Origin: an uncultured Prochlorococcus sp.
GTDB lineage: Bacteria > Cyanobacteriota > Cyanobacteriia > PCC-6307 > Cyanobiaceae
Assembly (NCBI GenBank): GCA_902535185.1
Contig: CACAST010000008.1
Coordinates: forward strand, 1 to 40,189
DNA length: 40,189 nucleotides
Direction: 5' to 3'
Shown here piece by piece: positions 2,364 through 3,602 of the stretch; position 1 is the stretch's first letter, and each line of letters begins with the position of its first letter. The position numbers and the translations under genes were made by a program. Under the pieces are notes generated by a model, which saw only the letters and a program-made list of their open reading frames with translations, had not been told where the DNA came from and searched no databases.

Positions 2364-2426
2364 GTTTCGGGTTAGCCTCCATCTGACGGGGAATTAAATT
2401 AATAATTCACCCGAAACTGTCAGATG
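2364..2426 (-). promoter_or_regulatory. candidate structured rpsB mRNA leader (pseudoknot)
   Basis: Two interleaved perfect inverted repeats: 2364-2372 GTTTCGGGT with 2409-2417 ACCCGAAAC, and 2380-2387 CATCTGAC with 2419-2426 GTCAGATG; small GAATTA/TAATTC hairpin between (2391-2408). Confidence 0.7.
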
Positions 2427-3452: not shown

Positions 3453-3602
3453 TTAATCAGCTGCACCGCCATTATTTGCTGTGCCTGTAACGTTTCCACC
3501 GTCAGGTCTTCCATCAGTTCTTAATTTCCTTTTTTTGAATTTTCTAGCATAGGCTCTATTACGTTCCTGCTTTTCTTTTTTTAGATTCCTTCTCTTAGAC
3601 AT
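3453..3602 (-). CDS. small basic conserved protein (49 aa)
   Basis: Unlisted small ORF: MSKRRNLKKEKQERNRAYARKFKKRKLRTDGRPDGGNVTGTANNGGAAD; strongly basic N-terminal half. Confidence 0.7.
   Translation of the reverse strand: MSKRRNLKKEKQERNRAYARKFKKRKLRTDGRPDGGNVTGTANNGGAAD

Follow-up and report, generated by a model that had tools for sequence, protein, structure and literature searches.

The rpsB gene in the window (the whole analysed stretch of 40,189 nucleotides from an uncultured Prochlorococcus sp.) is preceded by a structured leader, which represents the known rpsB motif in its picocyanobacterial form. As a class, the element is thus not new, and the motif had already been reported from the group in which it occurs. 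Strong covariation in a large sample confirms this element, which is present in each of the 120 photosynthetic cyanobacterial leaders analysed and is not recovered there by Rfam. Taken as a whole, it is best explained as a folded leader of the rpsB motif type through which ribosomal protein S2 would exert feedback on rpsB-tsf, a reading that we consider probable.

Ahead of rpsB, the minus strand contains the pairs CATCTGAC/GTCAGATG and GTTTCGGGT/ACCCGAAAC, whose interleaving gives an H-type pseudoknot. Two perfect inverted repeats are involved, one of 9 bp (2364-2372 with 2409-2417) and one of 8 bp (2380-2387 with 2419-2426), and the leader reads CAUCUGAC-A-GUUUCGGGU-(21 nt with a hairpin)-GUCAGAUG-GAGGCUA-ACCCGAAAC-(12 nt)-AUG (Table 1). 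The preliminary description of this region had reported two such repeats in the order A-B-A'-B' on the transcript with a GAATTA/TAATTC hairpin inside, and both repeats as well as the hairpin (2403-2408 with 2391-2396) lie where it had placed them. The closeness to rpsB was also correctly seen; the distance has to be amended from 13 to 12 nt, counted from the pseudoknot to the ATG at 2351. The next gene upstream is oriented like rpsB, from which it is separated by 128 nt. The encoded RpsB is 94-100% identical to RpsB of 120 other genomes in the genus. Elsewhere in the window, the minus strand contains a 49-codon open frame (3456-3602) for a very basic small protein (MSKRRNLKKEKQERNRAYARKFKKRKLRTDGRPDGGNVTGTANNGGAAD), which is below the 50-aa limit of the ORF list and sits between a glycosyltransferase-like ORF and an ABC-transporter ATPase-like ORF.

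Table 1. Features of the rpsB leader and its operon in the window.
Feature	Positions	Strand	Basis
Predicted extended -10 element, TTGCTAGGAT	2446-2455	minus	TGnTAnnnT at conserved spacing
P1 5' strand, CAUCUGAC	2419-2426	minus	inverted repeat; P1 covariation
Pseudoknot 5' strand, GUUUCGGGU	2409-2417	minus	inverted repeat; pseudoknot-only covariation
P3 hairpin, GAAUUA UUAAUU UAAUUC	2391-2408	minus	inverted repeat; P3 pairs covary
CCC able to pair locally with the GGG in the pseudoknot 5' strand (competing nested fold)	2388-2390	minus	MFE fold
P1 3' strand, GUCAGAUG	2380-2387	minus	inverted repeat; P1 covariation
Conserved linker GAGGCUA from P1 to the pseudoknot 3' strand, part of UGGAGGNNAACCC	2373-2379	minus	leader comparison
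Pseudoknot 3' strand, ACCCGAAAC, 12 nt before the start codon	2364-2372	minus	inverted repeat; covariation
rpsB (ribosomal protein S2), 234 aa	1647-2351	minus	
tsf (elongation factor Ts), second gene of the operon	945-1601	minus	translation recognised by eye

The stems had been regarded as unlikely by chance, and this judgement holds. Motif-blind searching for H-type pseudoknots gave a stacking energy of -32.5 kcal/mol for the window compared to -25.6 kcal/mol for the best of 400 dinucleotide shuffles, none of which (0/400) reached the value of the window. Nested folding alone was unremarkable (z = -1.4). It is thus the pseudoknot that stands out. When the 128-nt intergenic region was shuffled, perfect interleaved helices of at least 8 and at least 9 bp did arise occasionally (4 of 4000 shuffles), so that the repeats might in principle be a coincidence. 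Their conservation, their compensatory changes and their fixed position in 120 leaders leave this explanation with a negligible probability, and covariation already refutes it.

rpsB leaders were taken from the genus and from 33 families of the photosynthetic cyanobacterial class. Using an anchored parser, P1 and the pseudoknot were found before rpsB in 120/120 leaders of this class. GGGU/ACCC anchors were used for the counts because an unconstrained search for the best pseudoknot chose other helices in about a dozen leaders; anchored counts are biased towards structure, and shuffled and slid controls offset this bias in part. A first alignment on fixed-length segments was discarded, as it had shifted P1 by one column between groups. 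The preliminary description had suggested a covariation analysis, and both stems passed it: Among 69 distinct sequences, P1 and the pseudoknot together comprised 164 doubly changed cells compared to 47 in shuffles, and the pseudoknot alone comprised 27 compared to 6.8 with no shuffle as high, all these counts ignoring kinship. When the partner strand was slid by one column, most of the signal for P1 plus pseudoknot was lost. In P1, 96.9% of the cells are paired and six of seven pairs are doubly changed. The pairs of the inner hairpin P3 covary, too. The P3 length varies among cyanobacteria, in which the pseudoknot strand and P1 are separated by about 9 to 118 nt. RNAalifold alone, a method that cannot show pseudoknots, recovered P1.

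The core of the pseudoknot, CGGGU/ACCCG, is near-invariant and surrounded by compensatory changes in several families: UACGGGU/ACCCGUA is present in leaders L098, L102, L104, L106 and L114, AUCGGGU/ACCCGAU in L072, L113 and L119, and in L103 and L107 a U-A pair replaces C-G (UGGGU/ACCCA). In two rpsB leaders, L105 (71-173, minus strand) and L113 (67-168, minus strand), an inserted stretch separates P1 from the pseudoknot and takes the position that P2 occupies in other phyla. These two were parsed with weak choices for P1; the covariance model shows a regular P1, CAUCC.GG/CC.GGAUG.

A covariance model built from 30 cyanobacterial leaders was used to determine the specificity of the element. 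With a single exception, each genome searched in the photosynthetic class yielded one strong match and no further match at E <= 1e-3, and wherever the position of rpsB is known, the match is located just upstream of it. In genome G172, the one listed miss, the element is present with a long P3 and scored 54 bits in a direct search of the locus. In named genomes, all 119 of the 119 exact matches to the picocyanobacterial pattern, among the matches listed, precede rpsB, one of them being cut by the contig end just past the start. The named genomes with this pattern, again among the matches listed, belong to Prochlorococcus, marine Synechococcus, Cyanobium and a few otherwise-named picocyanobacteria. 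In a search of phages, no copy of the element was found. The same covariance model yielded no confident genome-wide match in the non-photosynthetic classes of the phylum, where leader L154 reached 23 bits. Several of the leaders L154, L155, L156, L159, L161 and L163 from these classes contain CACACGC...GGCGGAG-like sequences that remain below the cyanobacterial model; by eye, those of L154, L159, L161 and L163 resemble shortened and diverged versions of this motif. In one non-photosynthetic family, L157 and L162 have a different conserved segment, AGCCCGTAGTA, ahead of rpsB. Automatic picking of the best pseudoknot was unreliable on E. coli and the sister classes and was excluded from the results.

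In 111 of 118 leaders, a predicted extended -10 element (TGnTAnnnT) precedes P1 by 18-32 nt, compared to about 2 in shuffles. Transcription would start near 2439, and in this case the whole element is predicted to be transcribed. A start inside the element, which had been named beforehand as an objection to it, is not indicated: The conserved box places the likely start just upstream. The transcribed leader might, in theory, act by attenuation, with pairing of GUUUCGGGU and ACCCGAAAC followed by CCUUUUU serving as a terminator within the leader. A U run does follow the pseudoknot in the window and in many close relatives, and a terminator-like pattern was detected at 2426-2408. However, the U run is not conserved: The stem is followed by CCUAAAAAA or CUUAUUUAAAC in other leaders of the genus and by a Shine-Dalgarno sequence in other cyanobacteria. 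The terminator-like match relies on another stem, whose loop measures 5 nt, and its tail AATTATTAAT falls inside P3. The terminator reading was rejected owing to the non-conserved U run, and attenuation is considered very unlikely.

Two properties distinguish the picocyanobacterial leaders. First, the pseudoknot comprises 9 bp in 58 of 60 of them. Second, no Shine-Dalgarno sequence was detected between knot and start in any of these 60 leaders nor in any of the 118 rpsB-anchored pattern matches, among those listed. By contrast, a Shine-Dalgarno-like sequence, e.g. ACCCGAAAGGAG, follows right after the knot in 60/60 leaders of other cyanobacteria, for which the search range was 4 nt longer. Correspondingly, the pseudoknot strand ends 7-15 nt before the start codon in picocyanobacteria and adjoins the Shine-Dalgarno sequence elsewhere. 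Only 3 of the 28 ORFs of the window have a Shine-Dalgarno sequence. Therefore, its absence at rpsB is partly a genome-wide habit.

The element might also be constitutive, i.e. stabilize the mRNA or serve as a ribosome-standby site that places the 30S subunit on a leader devoid of a Shine-Dalgarno sequence, without being a feedback operator. This would be in accordance with the 0/60 picocyanobacterial leaders mentioned above, the retained UGGAGG in the linker and a sequence that is nearly invariant within the genus. We regard it as unlikely: There is one element per genome, it is located at rpsB and it is shared with the S2-regulated leader of E. coli. Furthermore, it is kept where an ordinary Shine-Dalgarno sequence exists and is, thus, no replacement for the latter.

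Feedback by S2 remains the preferred reading. In E. coli, S2 present in excess represses translation of rpsB-tsf through the leader with the aid of S1, and the S2 operator does not include the ribosome-binding site (PMC10931766). Therefore, occlusion of this site may not be the repressing step. By analogy to E. coli, autogenous translational repression of rpsB-tsf by S2 is the most likely function of the element in the window. The following course of events can be envisaged: Transcription would begin just upstream of P1 and yield a leader of roughly 88 nt, whose folding into P1, P3 and the pseudoknot is supported by covariation. S2 in excess over 30S subunits would bind to the folded leader, probably with the help of S1 as in E. 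coli, and stabilize the pseudoknot. The 3' strand of the latter is located at -21 to -13, within the 30S initiation footprint and near enough to the start codon to hinder 30S loading. Translation of rpsB would fall and that of tsf, too, by coupling.

Additionally, a local GGG-CCC pairing competes with the knot in 51 of 54 leaders of the genus compared to 23 of 60 elsewhere. By a rough calculation, the pseudoknot is ~10.6 kcal/mol below the nested fold before the knot penalty, which was assumed to be ~9 kcal/mol, so that both folds might have similar energies. Judged from the energies, the local hairpin that the genus forms on the same GGG might represent an open state, and S2 could shift the balance between the two folds. 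A more far-reaching proposal would be that the picocyanobacterial operator has been rebuilt as a two-state switch, in which the knot, lengthened to 9 bp, occupies the place of the lost Shine-Dalgarno sequence, the GGG hairpin is translation-competent and S2 chooses between nearly equal folds. This model is tentative and, in our opinion, rather doubtful. In any case, the picocyanobacterial form provides a simple test case for S2 repression on an mRNA without a Shine-Dalgarno sequence, and bears on the mechanism in E. coli.

Meyer et al. describe the rpsB motif as composed of P1, P2, P3 and a pseudoknot that is found across all taxa, and they list among its hosts the Cyanobacteria, in which P2 is lacking or very short (Meyer et al., 2009; PMC2704228). 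The window shares with this motif P1, an optional P2 plus P3, and the pairing of the junction with sequence 3' of P1. The element is located upstream of rpsB (the motif precedes rpsB or tsf), has a long P1 stem (8 bp, covarying) and forms a pseudoknot between junction J2-3 and the 3' extension of P1 (9 bp, covarying across cyanobacteria). P2 and P3, which are variable in the motif, are represented by a covarying P3, and P2 is lacking save for the insertion in L105 and L113. Hence, the preliminary description was right in proposing an S2-type rpsB leader; the leader is no cyanobacterial novelty, as Meyer et al. had reported the motif from Cyanobacteria with this topology. Differences concern the number of pseudoknot pairs, which is given there as five outside the Firmicutes compared to nine in picocyanobacteria and mostly seven to eight in other cyanobacteria. 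Loss of the Shine-Dalgarno sequence and the competing hairpin do not appear in the accessible text of Meyer et al. (2009; PMC2704228).

At the gathering threshold, Rfam yielded no match in the window. In a permissive search, the whole t44 model (RF00127) could be aligned with the window and scored 27 bits (E = 0.0011 for 401 nt). The search for known rpsB leader families that had been suggested at the outset gave an end-to-end alignment that remains below the gathering cut-off of 44 bits. Other weak Rfam matches (SNORD12, snoZ168, HYMAI) were dismissed as chance. In none of 97 cyanobacterial genomes (0/97) was t44 above the cut-off. Rfam has a gap here: Cyanobacterial rpsB leaders are not recovered by t44. 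Among 14 control genomes, Thermotoga maritima displayed a t44 match below the cut-off.

The t44 RNA, the rpsB leader of E. coli and gammaproteobacteria, shares with the window CACAC before P1, GGGUG and UGGAGGC.UAACCC. The E. coli leader reads CACACACGUAUC...GAUACGUGGAGGCAUAACCCC, in which GGGGU is complementary to ACCCC, and has UGGAGGCAUAACCC where the window has UGGAGGNNAACCC. It differs by a longer helical arm above P1, the 5-bp GGGGU/ACCCC pairing and a Shine-Dalgarno sequence downstream of the knot. Conversely, the cyanobacterial model R1 located the leader of rpsB in E. coli correctly (18.6 bits, E = 0.0028). The S15 operator and the S4 operator of the alpha operon in E. coli also use a pseudoknot close to the start codon for autogenous translational control. 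Set beside them by description, the leader in the window is alike in its proposed autogenous control through a pseudoknot and differs in protein, gene and sequence.
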